Source: Entoloma clypeatum (lineage: Eukaryota; Basidiomycota; Agaricomycetes; Agaricales; Entolomataceae). Taken from it: 64,000 nucleotides of DNA. Below, piece by piece: positions 4,939 through 63,058 of the stretch. The stretch lies in the NCBI GenBank assembly GCA_963565915.1, contig OY751486.1, positions 1,736,001 through 1,800,000 on the forward strand, written 5' to 3'. Made by a program: the position numbers and the translations under genes. The first letter of the stretch is position 1, and each line of letters begins with the position of its first letter. A model generated the notes under the pieces. That model made no database searches, was not told the origin of the DNA, and saw nothing but the letters and a program-made list of their open reading frames with translations.

Positions 4939-5025
4939 TGTTATGCTTAACAAACCGTTCCAAGGTTCAGGCAGAGTATGCAGGAAAATGGAAAGGCAAA
5001 GAGCAATGTGATTGCTAAATCTAAG
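4939..5025 (-). repeat. LTR end fragment, gypsy lineage 2
   Basis: This is a near-exact reverse complement of the last 85 or so bases of the LTR at 55421-55823. It starts at the conserved terminus (TGTTATGCTTAACAAACCG here, ending ...AACA in the LTR). Only the LTR end is present. It truncates the gene at 3886-4938 on one side and runs into the 20-base satellite on the other. Confidence 0.75.
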
Positions 5026-5040
5026 GCATGAAGGAAGGTG

Positions 5041-5440
5041 GTTGGACGCGAGGGGAAGCCGTTGGGCAGGAGACGCGGCCGTTGGGCACGAGGGACGGTC
5101 ATTGGGCATGGGGAATGGCCATTTGGCACGAGGAATCGCCGTTGGGCAGGAGACACGGCAGTTGGGCGCAAAGGTAGGCCATTGGGCAAGAGACACGGTC
5201 GTTGGGCGCGAAGGAAGGTGGTTGGAGGCAAGGGGAGGCCGTTGGGCAGGAGACGCGGCCGTTGGGTATGAGGGACGGTCGTTGGGCACGGGGAATGGCC
5301 GTTGGGCAGGAGACGCGGCCGTTGGGCGCAAAGGAAGGTGGTTGGGCAGGAGACGCGGCCGTTGGGCACAGAGGTAGGCCGTTGGGCAAGAAACGTGGAC
5401 GTTGGGCACAAGGGGTGGCTGTTGAGCCCACGAACCGGGC
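5041..5440. repeat. 20-base satellite array, 20 units
   Basis: Exactly twenty consecutive 20-base units with no register slips. A typical unit is GTTGGGCAGGAGACGCGGCC. A higher-order 180-base period is visible: the units at 5041-5120 recur with few changes at 5221-5300. All long ORFs over the array on both strands are artefacts of the repeat. The same unit recurs inverted at 6010-6440 and inside the hAT element at 46380-47110. Confidence 0.92.
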
Positions 5441-6009
5441 GCAGAGCGAGGGGGAGGCGTTGTGGGAAGTGGTTGGCAGTGGTTACATACTTAAATTTTA
5501 AAGTTCAAATGACTCGCTTCGGCGAGTTGAATCGGAGTTTGAATTGACTTGAAAAAAGCTTGAGTGTGCCAGCACAATGTGCAAAGTTCGAGCAGGTGCA
5601 ACGCACCTTTTCGTTGCAAGGCTGGGAATTCCAGGACCATCAGGAAATTTCCCGATGGTGTCTTGATTCCCAACTTTCCCTGTCAGGGACCCCCTCAATC
5701 CCACAAGGGCCGGATTCCACCAGGTCCGATTTTGACTGGGAATCACTGATGCCACGAGGTGTGCTGTGCCAGGCTGTGCCTCAGGAACCCTGATATCCCC
5801 AGGTGTCCTTCATCATTTTTGAATCGTGATGCGATACATTTCCGAGTTCTCGTAAACTCGAACTCGGTTTTTCCAGGCGACCTCAGCCAACTTCTTTCGT
5901 ACCCTCCCATCATGCAGTTTTTTGATCGATTGATGGAATTATTTGTTGTTATTTGTTTGACACATTGATGGCCTAGATAAGTACAGAGTAAGTAACCCAC
6001 TGCCACGGC
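5441..6009. other. Spacer between satellite arrays, no gene
   Basis: No convincing coding signal. The part at about 5640-5760, with TCCGATTTTGACTGGGAATC, loosely resembles sequence near 7230-7300 and the reverse complement near 59615-59640, so an old dispersed repeat probably lies here. Confidence 0.35.
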
Positions 6010-6440
6010 TCCTTCACTCGTCCAACGGCCTGCCCAACGGGGCCCAACCACCTTCCTTCGTGCTCAACGGCCGCCCTTTCCGTCCAACGACCGCCCCTTG
6101 CCCCAACGACTGCCCCTCGTGCCCAACGACCGTCCCTTGCCCCCAACGGTCACCGGCCTCCCCTCGTGTCCAACGACCGTCCCTCGGGCCAAATGGCCAC
6201 CCCTCATACACAACGGCCTCCCCTCGTCCCCAACGGCTGCCCCTCATGCCCAACGGCCTCCACTCATGCCCAACGGCCGTCTCTCGTCCCCAACGGCCTC
6301 CCCTCGTCCCCAACGGTCGCCCCTCGCCATCAAAGGCCTCCCCTCGTCCCCAACGGCTGCCCCTTGTCCCCAACAGCCTCCAATCATGCCGGATGACCTC
6401 CCTTCGCGCCCAACGCCCCCCTTCGTGCCCAATGGCCCCA
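6010..6440. repeat. 20-base satellite array, opposite orientation
   Basis: About 21 diverged units of CAACGGCCTCCCCTCGTCCC, the reverse complement of the unit at 5041-5440. The register slips in places (near 6025-6060 and 6150-6165). With the first array it forms a potential giant inverted repeat around a spacer of about 570 bases. 6441-6790 beyond it shows nothing I recognise. Confidence 0.85.
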
Positions 6441-7289
6441 CTTGGCCTCCCTCGTCACCCACGGCCTCCACTACACAAACTGGGGCTGCCACAGAACCAA
6501 CGAGGATCTCTGCGCGAGCGAAGGCAAGTCATGTATCTGTCTGTACGATGTTCATAACCCTGATGTGTTTTCTCCTTTGTTTGGGATGATTAGCCCACCA
6601 GGGGCTCCTGAATTGCGATGCCGACATATCAGACAGCCGCTGGTGATTGATCCCATTGCCAGAGGTTGTCGTTGCGCGTCTGCGCGTCTGCTTTAGATCT
6701 GTTGTTTCTTTTTTCTCACTCATCGTCTTACAACACATTCTGTCCTACCCACGCACGTGATTTGTGCATATGCTTTATGATTTGAATGATTTGCTACGAC
6801 TTTGAAATGAAAATTTTGTGGTTCAATGAAGTATGAATTCGAAAACATAAAATCCCAAAAAACCACAATGCAACCGACAACATCTGGGAACAGTGGGGAA
6901 TAAATGAAACAAATGAGTGACAAACATGGGAATATCGGGTGACCAAACTGGGCAAGCATGGTAAAATTGGGAATGGTAGGGAAGTTGACCTGGTTAAGGC
7001 CAGGGACGAGCGGGAAAAAGCTGGAACCAGTGGGAATGAGCCGGCGAATATCCTGAGAATGCCCGAAAATTTCAGGGGAAAGTAGAGCCCCATTGGGGAA
7101 AGTCTGGATATCTGGATAGGTATGTCTGGCTCGCTTGTGCTACCCGGAATTTTGAAAATTTGGTCTCCCCATTTTTTCCGACTTTTGGTCCGACATAATG
7201 GGGTTTTCGGGTCCACCCAATCGACCCAGGAAAAGCCAGCTTTGACCCTATCAAACCCTGATTTTTCCGGAAGTAACCAGATCCGATTT

Positions 7290-13667: not shown

Positions 13668-14160
13668 TGTTACATTCCGATCCATTCCGACGATTTCCGA
13701 CCAATCCCGACACCTCCGACACCTCCGACACCTCCGACATTTTGACTAATACTTATTATGCATACTTACTGTTATGAATCTCGTTACTACGTACATTACT
13801 TACATCCGACCATTTTACTTATGTTAAGAATCTCCGACAGCCACTTGTTATCCGACTCCGACGAAGCCACACGTCCTCCAACATAGTATTTAAACTTATG
13901 TAGAATCGTGTATTAGCTTCAGTTTGAATATCAACTTAGATTCGACATCATACCTCCCGTCCTCTTTCCGACTCTTAACTTGAGTCCGACCTCCGACCTC
14001 CGATCCTCCGATCCTCCGAAATAAGGACACCAACATATTAGCGAGGGCACAACACACAAGTTGAAGCCAAGTCCTTGCCCCTACGTTGCACGCGCTCCGA
14101 CCCTCCGACCTTCCGACGCGTCCGACGTAGCTCCGACGTTTTGTCGATCAGTTCTTAACA
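13668..14160 (+). repeat. 5' LTR, gypsy lineage 1
   Basis: 493 bases, TGTTACATTCC...TTCTTAACA. It holds about 18 copies of CCGAC, including a CACCTCCGA tandem repeat with one unit more than the 3' LTR (13711-13739). TAGTATTTAAACTT near 13885-13898 may be the TATA-like promoter element. Confidence 0.93.
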
Positions 14161-14206: not shown

Positions 14207-15433
14207 ATGGCAGCCCGCAACACACAGAACTCCCGCGCAGCAGCAGCCGCAGCGGAAGCTTCAAACCTGCAGGACACCAGGGCGACATTTCTACATACGT
14301 TCCAAGATATTTCTGCAGAAGAATCTGCACCCAAACCTGACCCCATATCTCCGACACCTCGTCTCCGAACACCTCAGACACAAGGACCTCCGATTCCTGA
14401 AGAATTCCGTCCTTTTAAATCTCCGACCTCTCCTTTTGACGATAACAATCCTTTCCGTCGCGAGCAAACTCCAAACCTCGCCGAAGCAATTATGCTTATG
14501 ACGCAGGAGCTCCGACGTAGAGAGGCTCCGAAAACTCCGAAAAAGAAGTCGAAGGAACCCGACACTCTTGATGGTTCCGACTCTCGGAAACTCACCAGTT
14601 TCCTCGCACAATGCACACTATATTTCCGAAACAACCCCGCCTTTGACGATGATGATAACAAAGTCAGTTTCGCTCTGTCGTACCTCTGAGGAACCGCGCT
14701 CGAATGGTTTGAGCCCACCCTCTTGGGAGAGTCCGACGACGACTCTGTCTGGTTGGACGACTGGTCCGCCTTTGTGCACATCCTCCGATCCGAATTCGGA
14801 CCTATCGATCTGACCGGAGAAGCAGAGAATAGCCTGGATCACCTTCAGATGCGCGACAATCAGAAGATCCTACATTACAACGTGGACTTCAAACGTCTTT
14901 CCGCTCGCATGCAGTGGGATGATGGCGCGCTCCGATATCGGTACTATACCGGTTTAGCGGAACACATCAAGGACGTTTTGGGGACTTTTCCCAAACCAAA
15001 GACTCTCGCCGAGTTGAAAGTAATGGCCCATAACATTGATGCTCGCTACTGGGAACGTCAACGCGAGAAATCGTGCTCCTCCGACAAATCTACTCCGAAG
15101 TCCGTCAAATCCGACAAATCCGACAAAAAACAGACCCCCGCTTCATCATCCTCCAACAACAACTCCTCATCGTCTAAACCCAACTCGCAACAACAACAAA
15201 AATCGTCATCCACCTCTCTGAAATCCGCCCTCTCCGACAAACTTGGCAAAGATGGGAAATTAACTCCCCAAGAACGCCAACGACGATTTGACAATAATTT
15301 ATGCATGTTTTGCAGCAACGTTGGATATCGGGCTTCCGACTGTTCGAAGAAATCGTCTTCTAACGCCAAAGCAAAGGCCCGCGCGGCCCAAGCTGAGGAC
15401 AAATCGGAGAAGACGACCGAGTCAAAAAAATAG
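14207..15433 (+). pseudogene. Gypsy lineage 1 gag with an in-frame TGA
   Basis: Starts at ATG 14207, 46 bases after the LTR, and reads 409 codons to TAG 15431-15433, apart from a TGA at 14687-14689. The sequence around it (Ser-Tyr-Leu-stop-Gly-Thr-Ala-Leu-Glu-Trp-Phe) is conserved gypsy capsid, and CGA to TGA is the simplest origin. Order: alanine- and proline-rich N-terminus, capsid core (about residues 120-270), Ser/Lys-rich linker, then one zinc knuckle near 15300-15345 whose histidine is replaced by tyrosine (C-x2-C-x4-Y-x4-C). The gene ends in a run of seven A directly before its stop, a probable frameshift site into pol. Two likely lesions make functional Gag improbable. Confidence 0.9.
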
Positions 15434-18400
15434 TAAGCAGTCCTCAGATTCCAGCATGTACTGGGGATTGCGTTGACTCCTTTCGTGCACCTTTGGAAAC
15501 CCTCCGACTCAATGCATCCGCTCTCTCAAATCTGAACTCTCTATGTATTGATTTGATATCTCCGACCTTTTCCGATTCTCTTCCGATAAAGACTCTTATT
15601 GATTCTGGTTCTACACATTGCTTCGCAGATACCAGATTTATTTCTTCTTTAAACTTATCTCCGACTCCGATTCCTTCACCTATGGTTTTGAAACTTTTTG
15701 ACGGTTCTTCAAATACGTATATCACACAATCTATCGATCTTCCTCTCCGATTTCCTTCCAGTGAACTTCTGACCGTTGCATTTTACGTGACAACCCTCGA
15801 TTCGTCTTGTAATTTGGTTCTAGGACACAACTGGCTCACCCGCTACAATCCGTTGATTGACTGGGTATTGGGCAGTATCTTATTCCGTTCTACGTTACCC
15901 GACACTCCGAGTCCGACTCCGACGTCGACTGCTGAGGCAGCTCCGCCACCTCTGCAGTGTCCGCCCTCTCCGATGGGCACCTCCGATCCGCTCACTCTGA
16001 ACACCTCCGACCCGCCACAGATTACCATGGTCAATGCAGCCGCATATCTCCATGCATGTAAAGCTCCTGGGGCATACGCTTTCCGCGTTCACCTCTCCGA
16101 CATCTCCGCCAATTCCGTGTCTGTCTCCAATGACGCTCCCGACCTCTCTGGCATACCCGAGGAATACCACGATTTTGCTGATGTATTCAGTAAGAAAAAA
16201 GCCGACACCCTTGCACCCCACCGACCGTACGACCTCAAGATCAATTTGGAGGAAGGTACTTCCCCTCCGATTGGTCCGATGTACTCACTCTCGCAATCCG
16301 AACTTGGATCCCTCCGAGACTTCATCGACGAGCACCTCAATATCGGTTTTATCAAACCTTCTAGTTCACCTCACGGCGCTCCGATCCTCTTCATCCGAAA
16401 GAAAGATGGATCACTCCGACTATGCGTTGACTACCGAGGCCTGAACAAAATCAGGAAGAAGGACCGATACCCACTTCCGCTCATCTCCGACCTCTTAGCC
16501 ACTGCCGGAAAAGCACGCGTTTATACCACCATAGACCTCCGACACGCATACCACCTAGTCCGCATCGCTGAAGGTGACGAATGGAAAACTGCATTCCGCA
16601 CTCGCTATGGATCATTTGAATGGTTAGTCATGCCATTCGGATTGTCTAACGCACCTGCAGCCTTTCAACATTTTATGAACGACATCTTCTCCGACCTTCT
16701 GGACAACTGCGTTACCGTTTACCTCGACGACATCCTGATCTACTCCGACAACCCCGAGGAACACAAAAAACATGTCCGAGAAGTCCTCCGACGACTCCGA
16801 CAACATGGTCTTTACGCCCGCGCCGACAAGTGCGACTTCTCTGCCGAAACTGTAGAATATCTTGGATTTATCCTTTCTCCCAACGGACTCAAAATGTCGG
16901 AAGCGAAAGTCAAGATTATTCAGGATTGGCCTGAACCGCGCAGAGTGAAGGACGTCCAGTCCTTTTTAGGTTTTGCAAACTTTTACCGATGTTTCATTCC
17001 ATTCTATTCCAACATCACTATTCCACTCACTCGTTTAACCAGGAAACATGCCACTTGGCTGTTCTCCGACGACGCTCGAACCGCTTTTAATGACCTGAAA
17101 AAGGCATTTACCACCACTCCGATCCTGACACACTGGATTCCCGACTCTCCGATAATTGTCGAAACCGACGCATCCGACTATGCCCTAGCGGCTATTCTGT
17201 CGATAGTCACCTCCGACAATGAAGTCCACCCCGTCGCATTCCATTCCCGCACCTTCACGGCCCCCGAAGTAAACTATGACACTCACGATAAGGAACTTCT
17301 TGCCATCTACGAAGCGTTTAAAATTTGGCGCCATTACCTCGAAGGCTCCGGTACTCCGATTGACGTCGTCACCGACCACAAAAATCTCGAGTATTTTGCC
17401 ACCACCAAAGTTCTTTCACGCCGACAAGTCCAATGGTCAGAATACCTTTCTCAGTTCAACCTCGTCATCCGATTCCGCCCCGGCCGATTGGGAACTAAAC
17501 CTGACTCTCTAACTAGACGTTGGGATGTCTACCCTAAAGGGGGAAATAGCGACTACGTCGACATCAATCCGACCAACCTCCGACCAGTCTTTTCGCAAGA
17601 ACAGCTCTCCGCTTCAGTTCGCGCGACTCAACTCCTTGAGCCCGTCCTCCGTGCAACCATTATCATGGACACAGAAAAGCTTCACCACGACATACTCACA
17701 GCACTCCCTTCCGACACTCTTTACAGCACTCTTTCTAAAGATCCTAAACCCCGCTGGTCTCTCGACCCCGATGGTTTCCTCCGACATGATGATCGGATAT
17801 ACGTTCCCGACTCCGACGACCTCCGACTCCGAGTCCTACAGCACAAGCACGATCATATGCTTGCTGGACACCCAGGTCAGAACAAGACACTCAGTCTCAT
17901 TCAGCGTGATTATACCTGGCCCGGAATACGAGATTTCGTTAAAAACTATTGCAAGTCATGTACCACTTGCATGCGATCGAAGCCACAAAGACACAAGCCT
18001 TACGGCCTACTCAAACAGCTTCCGATCCCCGAACGTCCTTGGAATTCTATCTCAATGGATTTCATCGAGACCCTTCCGACCTCCGACAACTTTGATTCAA
18101 TCCTCGTTATCGTTGACCAATTAACGAAACAAAGTATTTTCATTCCGACAACAATTCACTGCACCTCCGAAGACCTTGCCGTACTCTTCGTACTACACGT
18201 CTTCTCTAAACACGGCGTCCCCGAACATATCACCTCCGACCATGGCCCCGAATTCGTCTCCCGATTCTTCCGATCTCTCGGAAAGGCTCTAAACATGACC
18301 CTCCACTTCACCTCCGGTTACCACCCCGAAGGCGATGGCCAAACCAAACGCACTAACCAGACCCTCGAACAGTACTTGCGGATATTCTGCAACTACCAAC

Positions 18401-19134
18401 AGGACAACTGGTCCGCTCTCCTTCCGATTGCGGAGTTCGCGTACAACAACGCACCTAGTGCTACCACTGGCATATCTCCCTTCTTTGCTAACAAGGGTTA
18501 CCATCCGAACATTACTGTTCACCCGGAACGAGACCTCGCCTCTTCCCGAGCCCGATCCTTCGTGACCGACTTAGACGAACTTCACCAAGAACTGAAAGCT
18601 ACCATCTCCGACACTCAACGACGTTACCAGAAGTCCTCCGACAATAATCGGATCGCACCTCCGACATTTTCTGTCAGACAACAGGTTTTCGTCAAAGCAC
18701 AGTTCTTCCGCACAACACGCCCATCCAAGAAACTCTCAGAAAAGTACTTGGGACCATACGAGATCATTGCACAACCCGGCACACACTCCTTTACCCTCCG
18801 ACTCCCCGACACATTCCGCGGTGTTCACCCCGTCTACCACGTCTCCATGCTTGAACATGCAACTCCGAACACCATTCCGAATCGGACCCAACCTCCGCCT
18901 CCTCTGATTGACATTGACGGAGAACTTGAGTACGAGATCGCTGAAATAGTCGACTCAAAAATTGACCGACGACGTAGCTGCAAGCTACTATATTTCATCC
19001 GTTGGTTAGGATATGAAAACACTGATGAAGAATTCTCTTGGCTACCAGCCAATGAATTGGAAAACGCCCCCGAGCTTGTCTCCGACTTTCACTCCGCTTA
19101 TCCCGACAAACCGGGTCCGCTCACATCGCTCTGA
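15421..19134 (+). CDS. pol: Gypsy lineage 1 Pol: protease, RT, RNase H, integrase, chromodomain
   Basis: About 1237 residues if translated by frameshift from gag; no ATG opens the frame, so an ORF start at 15493 would be TTG. Protease: Ile-Asp-Ser-Gly-Ser-Thr near 15600. Reverse transcriptase: Tyr-Leu-Asp-Asp near 16720. RNase H: Glu-Thr-Asp-Ala-Ser near 17160 and Thr-Asp-His-Lys-Asn near 17375. Integrase: zinc site His..His..Cys-x2-Cys near 17850-17970, then Met-Asp-Phe and Ser-Asp-His-Gly-Pro-Glu-Phe. The third acidic residue, expected 35 residues after the second Asp, is Lys (AAA at 18346-18348), where copy 2 has Glu. C-terminal chromodomain at about 18925-19090, expected to guide insertion into marked chromatin. 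No stop or frameshift, but the integrase change should abolish integration. Confidence 0.94.
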   Translation, partial: VKKIVSSPQIPACTGDCVDSFRAPLETLRLNASALSNLNSLCIDLISPTFSDSLPIKTLIDSGSTHCFADTRFISSLNLSPTPIPSPMVLKLFDGSSNTYITQSIDLPLRFPSSELLTVAFYVTTLDSSCNLVLGHNWLTRYNPLIDWVLGSILFRSTLPDTPSPTPTSTAEAAPPPLQCPPSPMGTSDPLTLNTSDPPQITMVNAAAYLHACKAPGAYAFRVHLSDISANSVSVSNDAPDLSGIPEEYHDFADVFSKKKADTLAPHRPYDLKINLEEGTSPPIGPMYSLSQSELGSLRDFIDEHLNIGFIKPSSSPHGAPILFIRKKDGSLRLCVDYRGLNKIRKKDRYPLPLISDLLATAGKARVYTTIDLRHAYHLVRIAEGDEWKTAFRTRYGSFEWLVMPFGLSNAPAAFQHFMNDIFSDLLDNCVTVYLDDILIYSDNPEEHKKHVREVLRRLRQHGLYARADKCDFSAETVEYLGFILSPNGLKMSEAKVKIIQDWPEPRRVKDVQSFLGFANFYRCFIPFYSNITIPLTRLTRKHATWLFSDDARTAFNDLKKAFTTTPILTHWIPDSPIIVETDASDYALAAILSIVTSDNEVHPVAFHSRTFTAPEVNYDTHDKELLAIYEAFKIWRHYLEGSGTPIDVVTDHKNLEYFATTKVLSRRQVQWSEYLSQFNLVIRFRPGRLGTKPDSLTRRWDVYPKGGNSDYVDINPTNLRPVFSQEQLSASVRATQLLEPVLRATIIMDTEKLHHDILTALPSDTLYSTLSKDPKPRWSLDPDGFLRHDDRIYVPDSDDLRLRVLQHKHDHMLAGHPGQNKTLSLIQRDYTWPGIRDFVKNYCKSCTTCMRSKPQRHKPYGLLKQLPIPERPWNSISMDFIETLPTSDNFDSILVIVDQLTKQSIFIPTTIHCTSEDLAVLFVLHVFSKHGVPEHITSDHGPEFVSRFFRSLGKALNMTLHFTSGYHPEGDGQTKRTNQTLEQYLRIFCNYQQDNWSALLPIAEFAYNNAPSATTGISPFFANKGYHPNITVHPERDLASSRARSFVTDLDELHQELKATISDTQRRYQKSSDNNRIAPPTFSVRQQVFVKAQFFRTTRPSKKLSEKYLGPYEIIAQPGTHSFTLRLPDTFRGVHPVYHVSMLEHATPNTIPNRTQPPPPLIDIDGELEYEIAEIVDSKIDRRRSCKLLYFIRWLGYENTDEEFSWLPANELENAPELVSDFHSAYPDKPGPLTSL
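15424..15430 (+). promoter_or_regulatory. Putative -1 ribosomal frameshift site (A AAA AAA)
   Basis: Seven A residues immediately precede the gag stop (TCA AAA AAA TAG). A -1 slip on them enters the pol frame, which is open from 15397 onward and so overlaps gag by 37 bases. The heptamer fits the X-XXY-YYZ slippery pattern. No downstream pseudoknot was worked out. Expression of pol from its own internal start is the alternative. Confidence 0.6.
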
Positions 19135-19161
19135 AACAAGAAAAAACAAGTACTATTCTAT

Positions 19162-20167
19162 CTACTTAGTACGTTGTTTCTTGTTGGACGGACCCTCCTC
19201 CTTGTCTGACTCCCCCTCCGACTCCGCCTTCTCCGACTCGTCCGATATGTCCATGTCGGACTGCTCCGGCATATCCAACCTCTTCCGATTCAACATGTCT
19301 TGCTTGATCTTCTTCGCCAGCCTCTGCTCCAGGCTCAACTCCTCTATCTCCTCATTCACATCCGACTTCCCCGATCCCTCCGACTCCGACTCCGATTCCT
19401 CCACTTCCTCTGGCACGTATGCAATGTTGACAGTTCCTTCAACTGCTGAGAGCAGTCTTCGGATCTGCCTTGTCTCCACCAAAATCTCCTTCAAGACGCT
19501 CAACAGCGTCACCTCCGACTCCGACCCTCCGACCTCTGTCGCTTTCCCTTTTCCCTTCACCTTCACCGTGCGCTTCACCTCCGACTCCGACCCTCCGACC
19601 TCTGTCGCTTTCCCTTTTCCCTTCACCTTCACCGTGCGCTTCACCTCCGACTTCCCCTCCGACGCTCCGACCTCGCACTTCTTCTTGTCTTTGATACAAC
19701 CTTTGCAGGACGACTTATTCCTAAAAACACAAGGTTAAAACAGAAGAGACGAACCAAAGAGGAACTTACTCATCACGTTCGCATTCGACGCCCTTCACAA
19801 TGCACCTATCACAGGTGCCGACCCCGACCCCGACTCCCGACCCCTCTCCGACCATCGCCGACACTTCCTCCACCTTCCTCTTCTTCGTCGTCTTCTTCTT
19901 CTTCTCCGCCTGCGGCTCCCCCGACCCCTTGCTCGATGCGCCTTGCGCAGCGGCCACTTCATTGGCCCTCTTCTGAGCCGCCAGCTCCGATGCCCGACGC
20001 ATCTCCTCCGCTAACCACGTTGCCTCCGCAGCCCTCTCTTCCTCCGCTCTCCGCTCCTCCTCAGCCTTCCTCGCAGCCTCCTCCTCCGCTGCTCGCTTTT
20101 TCGCCTCCACCTCCACGAGCTTAGCCTGCAGCGCCTCCATCTCCTTTTGAAAATCGGATGCCGACAT
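19162..20167 (-). CDS. Antisense Zn2Cys6 / coiled-coil accessory gene
   Basis: Two exons on the opposite strand to pol: 20167-19770 and 19720-19162, joined across a 49-base GTAAGT...TTTTAG intron (19769-19721). Splicing keeps frame and gives 318 residues. Residues about 5-85 form a Glu/Ala/Arg-rich coiled coil, followed by a Lys-rich nuclear-targeting-like stretch. Near residues 119-150 lie six cysteines spaced C-x2-C-x6-C-x8-C-x2-C-x6-C, exactly the fungal Zn2Cys6 pattern; the intron splits the x8 loop. The C-terminal half is acidic and includes an exact 66-base tandem duplication (19511-19642). All six cysteines and the intron recur in copy 2 (62065-63058). Probably a DNA-binding regulator; targets unknown. 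Its 165-base upstream region, next to the 3' LTR, is conserved between copies and likely holds the promoter. Confidence 0.85.
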
Positions 20168-20320
20168 ATTGAGGTTTATTTTCGGAAGAGTTTAAAACGA
20201 AAAGAGAATGGGGGAACAAGAAGAAAGAACCACTCAGACGGTATTTTCAACCAACGCATCACATGACACAGTTCACGCGCACCGACCACCTAGGTCCTTA
20301 GGCCTCATGGGTTCGGCCCT
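20168..20320 (-). promoter_or_regulatory. Conserved upstream region of the antisense gene
   Basis: About 150 non-coding bases between the antisense ATG and the polypurine tract. They are nearly identical in copy 2 (61912-62064), including AAGGACCTAGGTGGTCGGTG and AACTGTGTCATGTGATGC. Conservation of a non-coding stretch in this orientation supports a promoter and 5' UTR for the antisense gene. It is not needed for the sense transcript's coding. Confidence 0.5.
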
Positions 20321-20333
20321 AAGGGGGAAATAC

Positions 20334-20817
20334 TGTTACATTCCGATCCATTCCGACGATTTCCGACCAATCCCGACACCTCCGACACCTCCGACATTTT
20401 GACTAATACTTATTATGCATACTTACTGTTATGAATCTCGTTACTACGTACATTACTTACATCCGACCATTTTACTTATGTTAAGAATCTCCAACAGCCA
20501 CTCGTTATCCGACTCCGACGAAGCCACACGTCCTCCGACATAGTATTTAAACTTATGTAGAATCGTGTATTAGCTTCAGTTTGAATATCAACTTAGATTC
20601 GACATCATACCTCCCGTCCTCTTTCCGACTCTTAACTTGAGTCCGACCTCCAACCTCCGATCCTCCGATCCTCTGAAATAAGGACACCAACGTATTAGCG
20701 AGGGCGCAACACACAAGTTGAAGCCAAGTCCTTGCCCCTACGTTGCACACGCTCCGACCCTCCGACCTTCCGACGCGTCCGACGTAGCTCCGACGTTTTG
20801 TCGATCAGTTCTTAACA
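20334..20817 (+). repeat. 3' LTR, gypsy lineage 1
   Basis: 484 bases, preceded by the polypurine tract AAGGGGGAAATAC (20321-20333). It differs from the 5' LTR by one 9-base CACCTCCGA unit and eight substitutions, all CpG to TpG or CpA in one copy or the other. It ends ...TTCTTAACA at 20817, directly against copia sequence. Confidence 0.94.
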
Positions 20818-45140: not shown

Positions 45141-47472
45141 TAGTGTTCGAAAGTTGGGTTTGGTTTGGTTAATTGACCCCAAATCCATTAACCTAAACCT
45201 TAACTGGTTAAGAAATTTTCAGAAAAAAATCTAAACCAGACCAAACCATCATTAACCAGTTAATTTTTCATTGCTTTGGTTAATTTGTTGGTTAAACTCA
45301 GTTAAACCATACAAATATCACAAATTGTCCACCAGAGCCATGTTACTTAGTTAATTTGCTGTTGACATAGGTTCACACATGATTAAACCATCCAAACACA
45401 TGATTTTTGGCATGTGTGCCCTCATTGCAGAGTCAGCAGTGGGTGGATGCGTCGTTTCGACATTGGATGACACGCATCATGCGCGCATCAAATGTGTCAA
45501 ATACATGTAAACAAATCCTCAAAAACATCGCACATCTGCTTATTATATCCACACAGGAACAAGTAAGGGTTTCTACTATATCAATTAGGTAGGAGGGGAC
45601 CATATATCATCAAGTATGTATTTATTTTATGAAACTTTGCCACGGATTTTGAGTTATAGAGGTGCCGTGCTCTGACCAAATAATAGTAAACAATGCGCAA
45701 AATGCATCGCGCAGGCGCGCGGGGTGCCTTTCTCATGATCTAATAATAGTTTGAAGTAATAGAACTATATATGGGATATGTATTCACCTTCTGAGACACT
45801 GTGTATAATTTTTGGAAGTCCAGATAAGATAGAAATAATGAAATGTGGAGATTTCAGAAAAAGTGGTATATCTCCCCAAGGAATGAACCAAATTTGAAAA
45901 ACCAATGTGTGATGGGATCCCCTGAATGTGGAGAATCCAAAGCTGAAATAAAAAATTTTGGTCAAATTTTCGAACTATTTTGCTCATATTCACATTGTTA
46001 AGTCCTTGAAACTTATTTGAATGGTCTCAATAGGTTTACATACAATGGTTCAATAGTATATATATATTACAGGTAGTTGAAAGTGCTTGTGGAAAGGAGG
46101 AAGTAAGAAAATGCTGGTTTTTGTGTTTGAGAAAACCCATGATGCACTGTTGATCACAATTTACATTGTATTTTGATGCATCATTGTGGTGTACAGACTT
46201 TCTACCATACAAAGCTCATGTATCTAACTCTTTATATAACTTAAGAACTATTTTTGGTGCTTTTGGTGCCACAGTTTGGACATTGAGGGCGCGATTTTCA
46301 ACAACGCGCATCGCTCGGCAATTGCCGGAATTCGAACACTCGACACCAGCCAAAGCTTCCCACACTCTTGTTTTCCCCCACCTCCACTCCATCTGGCCAC
46401 CATCTGTGCCCAATGGCCACCACTCAGCCGCCTCAAGCGCCCAACGGCCTCTCTAATGCCCAATGGCCCCTCCTTGCGCCCAATGCCCCCCTCTAGCATC
46501 CAATGACCCCAACTCGTGCCCAACGTCCTCCAACGTCCTCGCTTCGCGCCCAACGGCCTCCTCTCGCGCCGAATGGCCCCCTCTAGCGCCCAACGACCCC
46601 AACTTGTGGCCAACGGCCTCCCTTCGTGCTGAATGGCCCCTCCTCGCGCCCAATGCCCCCTCTCCCACCGAAGGGCCCCCACTCGCGTCCAACCCCCTCC
46701 TGTGGCCCCCAATGGCGTCCCAAGCCCATCTCTCGAGCCCAATGGCCTCCAACGGCCCACTCTCGTGCCGAACGGCCCCCACTTGCGTCCAACGGCCTCC
46801 TTTCACCCCCCAATGCGTCCCTCACCTGTTTCTCGCGCCAACGGCCGTTTTTTGTGCCCAACGGCCTCGACTCACGCCCAACAGTTTCCACCCATCCACA
46901 ACACCCGTCTCTCGTGCCCAACGGCCCTCCGACTCACGTCCAATGACCTGCACTCATGCCCAACGCCCAATGCCGTCCACGTGCGCCCAATTGCCCGTCT
47001 CTCCTGTCCAACGGCCTCGACAAATGCCAAATGGCCCCCAACCCACGTCCAATAACCTGCACTCACGCCCAATGGCCTCACTTGCGCCCAACGCTGTCCA
47101 CGCTCGCGCAAATCACCTTGGATTTTTTTTTAGTATTTAATGTAGTTAGACGCGGGCTTTTTTTTAGTATTTACTGTAGTTAGACTCATAGTTCTATAAT
47201 GTAAGATTGGCAAGACTGGTGGGACCAGGCTCCCATTGGTCTTGTCTCCTTTTCTGTCATTTTCGTGTGAGTGAGAGACCCCCTTGCTTGTATGAAGGTC
47301 AGTGGTTTAAACCGGTTAAACCTGGTTAATTTATTTTTCCCAAAGTGATTAACTTAAACCAGTGGTATGTCTAAATCTAATTAACTCAAACCAGTCGGTT
47401 AACCAAACCACTGGTTTGGTTTGGTCTGGTTAGTGGTTAATTTCTTTTTTTTAACTGGACTTTCGAACACTA
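45141..47472. mobile_element. Non-autonomous hAT element carrying satellite DNA
   Basis: 2332 bases with perfect 14-base terminal inverted repeats, TAGTGTTCGAAAGT, flanked by identical 8-base duplications CTCCTGGT (45133-45140 and 47473-47480). Eight-base duplications and TAGnG termini are hAT hallmarks. Subterminal zones on both sides are packed with TTGGTTAA/TTAACCA words, as expected for transposase-binding sites. No transposase is encoded. The interior has AT-rich filler, then a 20-base satellite array (46380-47110). It interrupts a KDZ gene whose reading frame resumes on each side, so the insertion is later than the gene. Confidence 0.93.
46380..47110. repeat. 20-base satellite array inside the hAT element
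   Basis: Diverged units such as CCCAACGGCCTCCTCTCGCG with a 20- to 21-base spacing over about 730 bases. It is the same family as the arrays at 5041-5440 (inverted) and 6010-6440. Open frames across it, up to 225 codons, are repeat artefacts. Confidence 0.85.
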
Positions 47473-48888
47473 CTCCTGGTCCCGACTGATGGAAATCGCC
47501 AGACCTGTGGCCATGCCCGGCCCACTTCTTGTTCTTCAACCACCGCCACAGTTGAGACATTCGCAAAAGCTCCTGGTACAGGTTCAGTGTTTTTGCCGGT
47601 GCCGTTGGAAATGTTAGCCGCCGAAGCTTCTGAAAATATTGATAGGCAGAAGCTTTGCATTCCAAATTAGAAATGCGGTAGTCGTCCAACACTGCAACGG
47701 TAAATAGTGTTCAATAGCATGAAAATGTCGCCAGTACCAACCGGCAGTACATGAGATCTGTGTGAATGCCATCAGTTCCATGGCACAAACAGGTCACCAG
47801 GGCAATGTGATGGATTCCGTTTATATGCATAATCTGGACATAATGGTTATTGAGGGTGTCCTGCCTTGGGGCGGAATGTGTTGAGTCTGTAGAACCGGCA
47901 CCCATACCGGCATTTCCATCGGCACTACCGGTCGCACTCGACAGGTAGCCATAGAGAGGTTCCAAATCTGACTTGTCTTCTTCATTGGATCCGTCTGATT
48001 CCTTGTCATCTTCGTCATCAGTGGGCCCTGTCCTAGATGTAAAGCTGTCGGCTCCTTGTGTTGCTGGTCGTGCAAAGCTGCCGGTCTGCAATGCCATACA
48101 CAGCCTGACCTGTTCCTCCTTGTCCCTGACCAATTGCAAGGTCTCCAAAATGTCTTTCTGGAAGGTGAGAGATCGGCAAAGGGATGTGTCTAGATGATGT
48201 TGCACGAGAATATATACACCAACCTCCCAGAGGTCTGCCGAGCGGAAGAAGGTACCTGTCCAGCATTCGATACGATGTAGCGGATTATCACAATGTGAGT
48301 GGCGCATGCAGCAGCGACACAGAAGTGGTGAGGATGTGCAGTCCTTGCACCTCCATATTCCTTGTTTCCGCCCAACACAACCCATGCAAATTCCATTGCT
48401 TGGCAATGCCTCGCGTGCAAGCAGGGCTGCTAACAGACTTTCTGCATGGTTGACAAACTCCTGCATCCACATTGGTTGCTATGAGATAGTCATTAATCAA
48501 TATTAAGCATGACATGAATTTCAAATGACCTTGTTTTTTGCACAAGCAACAATGGGTTGGTCTCCATCATCATTGCTATACATGCCAATACTAACTCCAT
48601 CAAGGTTCACTCCATCAAGATTATCATTCGGAACGACCTCGACCTCTGTTGTTGTTCCTTCTTGGCTACCTTGTGCCATTGGCCTGAGTGGTACTTCAAT
48701 CCTTCGTATGATTGTCCCTGTCCAGGTGTTTGTCCTAACCTCTTTGAATGTCACGATGTTGATTGCCTCATCATCACCTTCAACTAACATGGCCTTGCCC
48801 TTTTCCCGTTTACGTTTTCTTGAGTGCATTGGAATTGTAGGAGTGTTGTTGTTCATCTGTGATGGATTAAGGAAGAAAGTGTCCTTGT

Positions 48889-62064: not shown

Positions 62065-63058
62065 ATGTCGGGAAACAAATTCCAAAAAGAATTGGAGGCG
62101 CTGCAGGCCAAACTCGCGGAGGTGGAGGCTAAGAAGCGAGTGGCGGAGGAGGAGGCTGCCAAGAAGGCTGAGGAGGAGTGGAGAGCGGAGGAAGAGAGGG
62201 CTGCGGAGGCGGCGCGGGTGGCGGAGGAGATGCGGGTAGCGGAGGAGATGCGGGTAGCAGAGGAGACATGTCAGGCGTCGGAGCTGGTGGCTCAGAAGAG
62301 GGCCGATGAAGTGGCCGCTGCGCAAGGCGCGTTGAGCAAGGGGTCGGGGGTGCCGCAGGCGGAGAAGAAGAAGAGGGCGACGAAGAAGAGGAAGGGGGAG
62401 GAGGTGTCGGCGATGGTCGGAGAGGGGTCGGGAGTCGGGGTCGGGGTCAGCGCCTGCAATAGGTGCATTGTGTAGGGCGTCGAGTGCGAACACAATGAGT
62501 GAGTTCTTCTTTGGTTCGTCTTTTTCTGTTTTAACCTTTTGTTTTAGGAATAAGTCGTCCTGCAAGGGTTGTGTCAAAGACAAGAAGAAGTGCGAGGTCG
62601 GAGCGTCGGAGGGAAAGTCGGAGGTGAAGGAGGTGAGGAAAACGGTGAAGGTGAATAAGGGGAAGAAAAAGGCGTCGGAGATGCCGTTGGAGAGTGGGTC
62701 GGAGGACACTGTCTTGAGTGTCCTCAAGATGATTTTGGCGGAGACCAGGCAGGTGAGGCAACTGCTAACAGCAGTTGAAGACTCGGTGAACACTGAGTAC
62801 CGACAAAAGTTGCCGGAGGTGTCGGAGGAGGAGACAGAGTCAGAGATGGATACAAGGGAGGAGATGCATGAATTAAGGCTGGAGAAGAGGATTGCGAGGA
62901 GAATAAGGAAGGACATAGTGAATAGGAAGAGGTTGGAGTTGCCGGAGCTGTCGGACGATTCCGACATGTCGATTTCGGAGCCGTCGGAGAAGGCGGAGGA
63001 GGAGGAGGAGGAGGACAAGGAGGAGGGTCTGTCAAACAAGAAACAATGTACTAAGTAG
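62065..63058 (+). pseudogene. Antisense Zn2Cys6 accessory gene of copy 2, one nonsense codon
   Basis: Exons 62065-62498 and 62548-63058 around a 49-base GTGAGT...TTTTAG intron (62499-62547), the same position and length as in copy 1. Without its stop it would give 314 residues. All six cysteines of the Zn2Cys6 pattern are kept, but TAG at 62473-62475 lies within the cluster, where copy 1 has a lysine AAG. The coiled coil has an extra 'Val-Ala-Glu-Glu-Met-Arg' repeat (62218-62265), and the C-terminal half lacks copy 1's 66-base duplication. Protein similarity is lower than for pol, especially in the second exon. Same proposed role as copy 1, but this copy is probably inactive. Confidence 0.82.

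Follow-up and report, generated by a model that had tools for sequence, protein, structure and literature searches.

The question raised by this locus is whether a two-exon reading frame, lying antisense inside a Ty3/gypsy retrotransposon, is a real protein-coding gene and, if so, what its product might do. The locus belongs to a stretch of 64,000 nt of the Entoloma clypeatum genome (the window; C2:1736001-1800000 of 60.1 Mb), whose relevant features are collected in Table 1.

Table 1. Features of the retrotransposon and of its antisense gene, numbered from the first letter of the window
Feature	Position	Strand	Remarks
5′ LTR	13668..14160	+	TG...CA
gag	14207..15430	+	in-frame stop at about 14687-14689 in the window copy; start codon a guess
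pol	15397..19134	+	protease, RT, RNase H, integrase, SH3_Tf2-1, chromodomain; stop codon ends at 19134
Antisense gene, whole coding span	19162..20167	-	ATG at 20167, stop at 19162
Exon 1	19770..20167	-	holds Cys1-Cys3, a charged segment (helical/coiled-coil) and a basic stretch resembling KKRKV
Intron	19721..19769	-	49 nt, GTAAGT...TTTTAG, phase 2, between Cys3 and Cys4
Exon 2	19162..19720	-	holds Cys4-Cys6, a linker and the C-terminal part, which ends in KKQRTK
Swapped C-terminal block	19220..19620	-	groups A and B 60-87% identical; matches lineage F; limits approximate
Antisense leader	20168..20333	-	conserved in the lineage F copy L096; contains the polypurine tract; no sense-strand TCCGA
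3′ LTR	20334..20817	+	18 TCCGA, every one on the sense strand
Second antisense gene copy	62065..63058	+ (element on -)	inactivated by a TAG at about 62473-62475 (CNRCIV*GVEC); its intron spans about 62499-62547

A gene between pol and the 3′ LTR

The host element encodes RT, RNase H and an integrase with a C-terminal chromodomain, is bounded by TG...CA LTRs and is flanked by 5-bp target duplications, as Ty3/gypsy chromoviruses are. In Pfam searches, pol matched RVT_1 (8e-40), Integrase_H2C2 (above its cut-off), Chromo (29.5 bits, cut-off 25.1) and, slightly under the cut-off of 32.6, rve (31.1 bits). The fungal names among the best 120 pol relatives listed, at 69-76% identity, were Leucocoprinus, Agaricus, Coprinellus, Trametes and Pleurotus; most of the 120 were nameless, and some were amphibian or ascomycete proteins at 41-52%. 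The window copy itself is not intact, having an in-frame stop in gag and mismatched target-site flanks.

The spliced antisense frame described by the first-pass annotation, made from the letters alone, was present as stated: a product of 318 aa with a C-x2-C-x6-C-x8-C-x2-C-x6-C cluster, interrupted by a 49-nt intron and located between pol and the 3′ LTR. The gene and pol are arranged tail to tail, and 27 nt separate their stop codons.

When the antisense leader of the window copy was aligned with that of the diverged copy L096, 120 of 167 alignment columns were identical. Such conservation fits a promoter, albeit without proving one. The further claim that the gene must have a promoter of its own held only in part: removal of the intron does require an antisense transcript, but this could start in the 3′ LTR (compare HBZ, below) or outside the element.

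We read 82 copies of the gene, namely the two of the window and loci L009-L088, all from this single genome and picked by similarity to the query, which favors preserved copies. Loci L001-L008 repeated the same places and were left out, while L096-L099 were handled separately; among the latter, L098 had no exon 1 and L099 was riddled with stops and shifts. Copy counts from the three genome searches are lower bounds (40/185, 125/394 and 150/232 candidates scored), and 20 of the roughly 150 exon-2 matches listed contained a stop codon, as counted by eye.

All 20 copies fetched with their flanks showed the order LTR, gag, pol, antisense gene, LTR, with pol in pieces in three and the 5′ LTR truncated in one. 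The arrangement that defines an aORF-3R (opposite to gag-pol, between pol and the 3′ LTR, in most copies) was therefore found in 20/20 long copies, and the tail of pol lay beside the gene, on the opposite strand, in 78/86 loci. Identical 5-bp target duplications flanked 17 of the 20 long copies, the LTR pair was identical in 10, and pol was one uninterrupted frame in 13 (broken in four, in pieces in three); this high-copy chromovirus family has been active recently.

The flanks of the window copy read TGGAT/GCGGT, and those of L009 (C2:1441200-1449600), an inverted copy that the same contig carries at a distance of about 0.3 Mb, read GCGGT/TGGAT. Such reciprocal flanks are the pattern expected if recombination had inverted the stretch between the two copies, or from an assembly join. 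With 186 codons, exon 2 is longer in these two copies than in any other of the 82.

Constraint on the spliced frame

The intron was in place in 82/82 copies, always with the acceptor TTTAG and with GTAAGT (72), GTGAGT (9) or GTAAGC (1) as the donor. Its length was 48 nt in 46 copies, 49 in 23 and 50-57 in 13, falling 49/26/7 in the three phases, mostly through changes in the T run that precedes the acceptor. Exon 1 ranged from 344 to 449 nt, yet was 2 mod 3 in 79 of the 82. The spliced ORF was open (ATG, phase, product >250 aa) in 65 copies, 63 of which had the exact six-cysteine spacing; the removal of L066 and L087, with odd C-termini, left 63 open copies for codon analysis, and in every one of these the unspliced reading hit stops.

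The six cysteine codons were kept in 82, 82, 82, 81 and 81 of the 82 copies and, for the last, in 81/81 aligned copies; the cysteine columns were 99.6% conserved, compared with 86% over all columns. Given the intron in 82/82 copies, the phase of exon 1 in 79/82 and the near-universal cysteine codons, the arrangement is far beyond chance. The second copy of the window, which had been reported to share the features of the first, does match it in orientation and retains a 49-nt intron as well as all six cysteine codons, but a TAG in the cluster blocks its protein.

Nei-Gojobori distances were calculated between groups of open copies, with at most eight copies per group. The dN/dS ratios involving group D were 0.15 for B-D (dS 0.27), 0.18 for B2-D (0.26), 0.20 for B3-D (0.28) and 0.28 for A-D (0.51), the pairs B-B3 and B-B2 giving 0.23 (0.16) and 0.27 (0.045). 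Comparisons of A with the B groups gave 0.39 for B3 (dS 0.38), 0.43 for B2 (0.30) and 0.45 for B (0.26). For the zinc cluster alone, the ratio between groups was 0.06-0.14. The first-pass annotation had named dN/dS and the fate of the cysteines across many copies as a check on the gene; the ratio proved to lie well under 1, and conservation of the cysteines extends far beyond the two copies of the window.

When seven copy pairs were compared in all six frames, the frame of the antisense gene had the lowest dN/dS in 7/7 (0.12-0.47), followed by the sense frame that shares its wobble position (0.19-0.72); the remaining four frames gave 0.91-2.62. Differences by codon position leaned to the third (e.g. 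13, 11, 50). These figures bear on the idea that a sense-strand coding region, or a structure of the sense RNA, is what is conserved, the antisense ORF being its shadow. Long sense frames do exist in the window copy (19010-19738 and 19450-20124), and the sense-strand motif CTCCGAC, discussed below, is enriched in exon 2. However, the sense frames were open in only 0, 1 and 7 of the 63 copies for exon 1 and in 0, 35 and 0 for exon 2, and they scored worse than the gene frame in 7/7 pairs; moreover, the motif is almost absent from exon 1, and still the portion of this exon that precedes the cluster shows a dN/dS down to 0.14 (groups B vs D). We regard such a shadow as exceedingly improbable.

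Two loci, L096 and L097, form a lineage (F) whose exon 1 and intron are unlike those of the other copies, the intron being at the same place and in the same phase (donors GTACGT and GTATGT, acceptor TTTTAG). Between lineage F and copies of groups B, B2 and D, dS was 0.68-0.77 and dN/dS 0.34-0.42; for the zinc cluster the ratio was 0.09-0.20, a rough value because it comes from 30 codons with dS above 1. One of the two, L096, is without Cys2.

We also compared one copy of group A, to which the window copy belongs, with one of group B, in 60-bp windows from the end of pol to the LTR. The two were 93-100% identical (mostly 97-100%) outside 19201-19620; inside, identity was 87% and then 60-73%. 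Group A was, on the other hand, 93-100% identical to lineage F over 19261-19620. Group A elements are thus of B type except for a C-terminal half of F type, acquired through recombination, and both versions of this half are constrained as protein.

Constraint between lineages is relevant to a further possibility, namely that the element picked up a host gene by chance and has it as a mere passenger, or that the gene is a pseudogene, its openness simply reflecting the youth of the copies. Many copies are indeed very young, as the identical LTR pairs in 10/20 indicate, so that openness alone proves little. Constraint at a dS up to 0.77, however, lies beyond such young copies, no host paralogue was found (0 of the genome's 18 Zn_clus matches fell at the gene's listed places, judged by eye), and the gene is present in two LTR families, as described below; this explanation is thus very improbable.

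One could also suppose that only the antisense RNA matters, pairing with the sense genomic RNA and limiting the element via RNA interference, with the protein incidental. The sense transcript covers the whole of the gene, so the two RNAs would be double-stranded there, and the idea has been discussed for plant elements, as the accessible text of PMC7264820 relates. It leaves unexplained why a single frame shows a dN/dS of 0.12-0.47, why exon indels stay in phase while intron indels are free, and why the cysteines are kept; we consider it improbable. All in all, it is near certain from these comparisons that the spliced antisense gene is real and under purifying selection as a protein.

The predicted protein and its counterpart in another LTR family

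The first-pass annotation had called the product a putative Zn2Cys6 transcription factor. Proteins of the Zn2Cys6 type hold two zinc ions in a C-x2-C-x6-C-x(5-12)-C-x2-C-x(6-8)-C pattern and bind specifically to CGG triplets (CCG/CGG being the half-site type); in the GAL4 type, the basic loop that contacts DNA sits between Cys2 and Cys3. The spacing of the antisense protein does fall exactly within this pattern, with x8 in 63/65 open copies and x10 in L097 and in the family G copy described below. The score of the cluster against the Pfam model Zn_clus (PF00172), however, was just 12.6 and 13.1 bits, the cut-off being 21, and the match aligned out of register.

For the whole protein, no Pfam family reached its cut-off, and neither Zn_clus nor a bZIP domain gave a match at E up to 1. 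GAL4 was the best PDB match for the cluster, at E = 2, with six of six cysteines aligned. Unlike in GAL4, the basic residues are in the second loop (Cys5-Cys6, IKDKKK) and not in the first, the Cys2-Cys3 loop reading IVKGVE. With Zn_clus below its cut-off, GAL4 matching only at E = 2 and no PDB match for the cluster of family G, the protein is best labelled Zn2Cys6-like.

Two basic stretches, KKRKV and KKQRTK, look by eye like nuclear signals. The designation as a transcription factor is not fully supported, its basis being the cysteine spacing, these stretches and the weak GAL4 alignment; that the protein is a DNA-binding regulator of its own element is probable.

When the protein was searched against a database of 5.8 billion proteins, no homologue appeared among the candidates scored (7988 with a single sequence, 7987 with five). 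Pol relatives at 70-80% identity are plentiful in the same database, and our guess is that the candidate lists were filled by proteins sharing words of the charged coil; for these reasons we do not read the result as absence. A scan of viral contigs gave 123 pattern matches, none of which was confirmed.

A counterpart was reached by asking where the LTR motif (next section) clusters in the genome. This led to family G, which has a different LTR and of which one copy was read (L101, C2:1832280-1834100). The stretch from the end of pol to the 3′ LTR of this copy holds an antisense gene of two exons for 273 aa, in which a charged coil precedes a C-x2-C-x6-C-x10-C-x2-C-x6-C cluster, and a 49-nt phase 2 intron falls between Cys3 and Cys4, at the same position and in the same phase as in the window gene. 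The protein ends in GPPAKKAKTQ, compared with GPSNKKQRTK in the window, and the pol proteins end, directly before the stop, in SAYPEKPGPLSRL (family G) and SAYPDKPGPLTSL (window element).

In global alignment, the two antisense proteins scored 134, against 76.9 (s.d. 12.3) for shuffles, a score reached by 0/500; taken by part, the cluster score was reached by 14/2000 shuffles and that of the C-terminal part by 21/1000. The family G cluster gave no PDB match and 7.7 bits with Zn_clus. Searching the genome with the family G protein produced at least 157 matches, from 141 scored of 296 candidates, and an opposite-strand gene lay between the members of 5/5 LTR-spaced motif pairs of this family on C2 (among the matches listed, by eye, L101 included). 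The family G gene was absent among the listed matches of the genome search with the window protein (125/394 candidates scored). Shared architecture and alignment thus show that family G has a diverged version of the antisense gene.

A third group, family X, differs in this respect. We examined seven SH3_Tf2-1 loci of the family X type (L089-L095), together with three element regions of the window whose pol end was not located. An antisense C-x2-C-x6-C half-cluster was found in 0/10 of these regions, which gave two chance hits on the sense strand; a control region of the studied element had both halves. As family X is abundant and has no such gene in the loci examined, such elements can thrive without it.

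An oriented motif and the putative role of the protein

The pentamer TCCGA, mostly as CTCCGA(C), occurs 135 times on the sense strand of the element and 13 times on the other, over 7150 bp. In the LTR, 18 TCCGA compare with a shuffle mean of 1.9, and gag-pol has 86 on both strands together, compared with 19.1 (reached by 0/200 shuffles in either case); gag has 10, compared with 3.9. Within the region of the antisense gene, the motif is found twice in the 613 bp of leader, intron and exon 1 and 17 times in the 559 bp of exon 2. Seven other coding stretches of the window showed no such excess.

In pol, the TCCGA sites are spread over the codon phases (19, 16, 23). When codons were shuffled at synonymous positions, the observed counts of CTCCGA (40 vs 8.1) and TCCGA (58 vs 19.1) were reached by 0/1000 shuffles each, while that of TCGGA (7 vs 4.0) was reached by 80/1000. 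The motif excess in pol is not explained by the protein sequence. Ser-Asp is written TCC-GAY in 17/18 cases, Leu-Arg CTC-CGA in 12/14, and CCG is the codon used for 23/25 Pro that have T before and A after them. Since Ile-Arg (2/5), Val-Arg (1/4), Phe-Arg (1/8) and Ser-Glu (2/6) show hardly any excess or none, the flanking C and Y seem to matter.

Among 17 other pol copies, motif sites differed from the window copy in 1.7% of copy-sites; the values for other NCCGN, other NNCGN, TCGGA and non-CpG pentamers were 3.6%, 5.7%, 3.4% and 6.6%, respectively (motif vs other NCCGN, Fisher 0.007, the copies not being independent). Genome-wide, three-fold CTCCGAC clusters numbered 532, against 6 for the reversed pattern; among the matches listed, by eye, some fell within exon 2 of the antisense gene, and others formed pairs at LTR spacing that belong to several families.

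In the pol of a family X element (L100, C5:1202200-1205640), CGGAG, GCGGA and TCCGA/TCGGA were in excess on both strands beyond synonymous shuffles.

CTCCGA(C) is a plausible, or at least possible, target of the antisense protein. Against this, family X has the motif without the gene, and an orientation bias is unexpected for a plain double-strand site. A signal at the RNA level (for packaging, export or protection) is an equal alternative for the motif.

VANDAL elements are DNA transposons, and their anti-silencing protein VANC, which binds its motif and removes methylation, is unrelated to the one studied here. The likeness to VANC/VANDAL of Arabidopsis lies in the accumulation of a short motif in the element, CTCCGA(C) being the candidate target in our case; VANC, in the accessible text of PMC5735166, is an element-encoded protein acting on target sequences that are often tandemly repeated in the element. 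By analogy, the zinc-cluster protein might recognize its own element, binding the oriented CTCCGA(C), with its CCG/CGG triplet, that has built up in the LTRs and, by synonymous codon choice, in gag and pol, and so marking the DNA or the sense RNA of that element and driving it or shielding it from silencing. The two gene-bearing families, the studied one and G, share the oriented motif, and family X, with both orientations and no gene, may use the protein in trans. We put this forward tentatively, as a rather doubtful proposal.

Irrespective of the motif, the explanation that we favor, with moderate confidence, is an accessory antisense gene, spliced and translated into a nuclear DNA-binding protein that regulates or protects its own element. 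The antisense RNA would start in or near the 3′ LTR, be spliced and then translated; the protein would enter the nucleus through its basic stretches, dimerise by the N-terminal helix and use the six-cysteine zinc cluster to bind DNA, the likeliest sites being those within the element itself. Once bound, it would regulate transcription of the element or protect it from silencing. Being in an unspliceable orientation in the sense genomic RNA, the intron would survive retrotransposition. The C-terminal half, for its part, has moved between lineages by recombination.

Alternatively, the protein could act at a later step, with no role in transcription, by coating the cDNA or RNA, helping the pre-integration complex into the nucleus or directing integration. 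The charged helix, the basic stretches and the six-cysteine cluster would suit a nucleic-acid chaperone just as well, and nuclear import of the pre-integration complex has been raised for plant antisense ORFs (in the accessible text of PMC7264820). The element's own integrase, however, has a chromodomain, and a gene transcribed antisense would be an awkward source for a particle factor; we therefore hold this alternative to be unlikely.

The first-pass annotation knew of no named system of this kind, which does not stand as a general statement, since some extra ORFs that run antisense between pol and the 3′ LTR already have names and HBZ is also known. HBZ, as a bZIP protein, is a coiled-coil dimer. 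Like the studied gene, the HBZ gene of HTLV-1 is antisense and spliced, and encodes a transcription regulator, its start in the 3′ LTR being a feature of HBZ (accessible text of PMC1459196); it differs in belonging to a deltaretrovirus and in having no zinc cluster, and no sequence relation between the two proteins is claimed.

Closer in architecture are the antisense extra ORFs of the Ty3/gypsy elements Grande (gene23, maize), RIRE2 (rice) and Retand (TRP28 domain), which lie between pol and the 3′ LTR, with Boty as the fungal case (passages of PMC7264820). Antisense transcription from an own promoter has been reported for Grande, and antisense TRP28 ORFs occur in 97% of Retand clusters (passages of PMC11963269). 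Retand, however, is a non-chromovirus lineage of plants, whereas the element studied here is a fungal chromovirus; the main texts of PMC7264820 and PMC11963269 contain the word "intron" 0 times and, in the passages on these ORFs, name no zinc cluster. The same architecture is seen in brtn of the Boty-like chromoviruses of Botrytis cinerea (Zhao et al. 2011), an additional antisense gene of a fungal chromodomain gypsy element; this comparison rests on the descriptions in citing papers (passages of PMC7264820, PMC8365987 and PMC4227169), not on sequence.

In a literature search by titles and abstract openings, which left subscription papers, brtn's included, mostly uncovered, no zinc-cluster antisense gene of a fungal retrotransposon was found. 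The architecture is thus already known, and the spliced, selected zinc-cluster version is new. That LTR retrotransposons can bear extra antisense genes is long established, although, as passages of PMC7264820 put it, no function is known for them; the copy number, the depth of divergence and the diagnostic intron firmly identify one such gene as a spliced protein gene under selection. Its six-cysteine cluster, together with the saturation of the sense strand, down to the codon level, with a CCG-containing heptamer, offers a concrete, directly testable protein-site pair. Should protein and heptamer prove to be partners, the coding sequence of LTR elements would be overwritten with a self-recognition code that spans the whole element.

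Elsewhere in the window, two long arrays with a 20-nt period were observed at 5005-5464 and 6111-6450, the second type recurring at 46511-46670. An ORF at 47711-48478 gave a weak match, under the Pfam cut-off (E 6e-4), to a cysteine cluster associated with CxC2/KDZ transposases.
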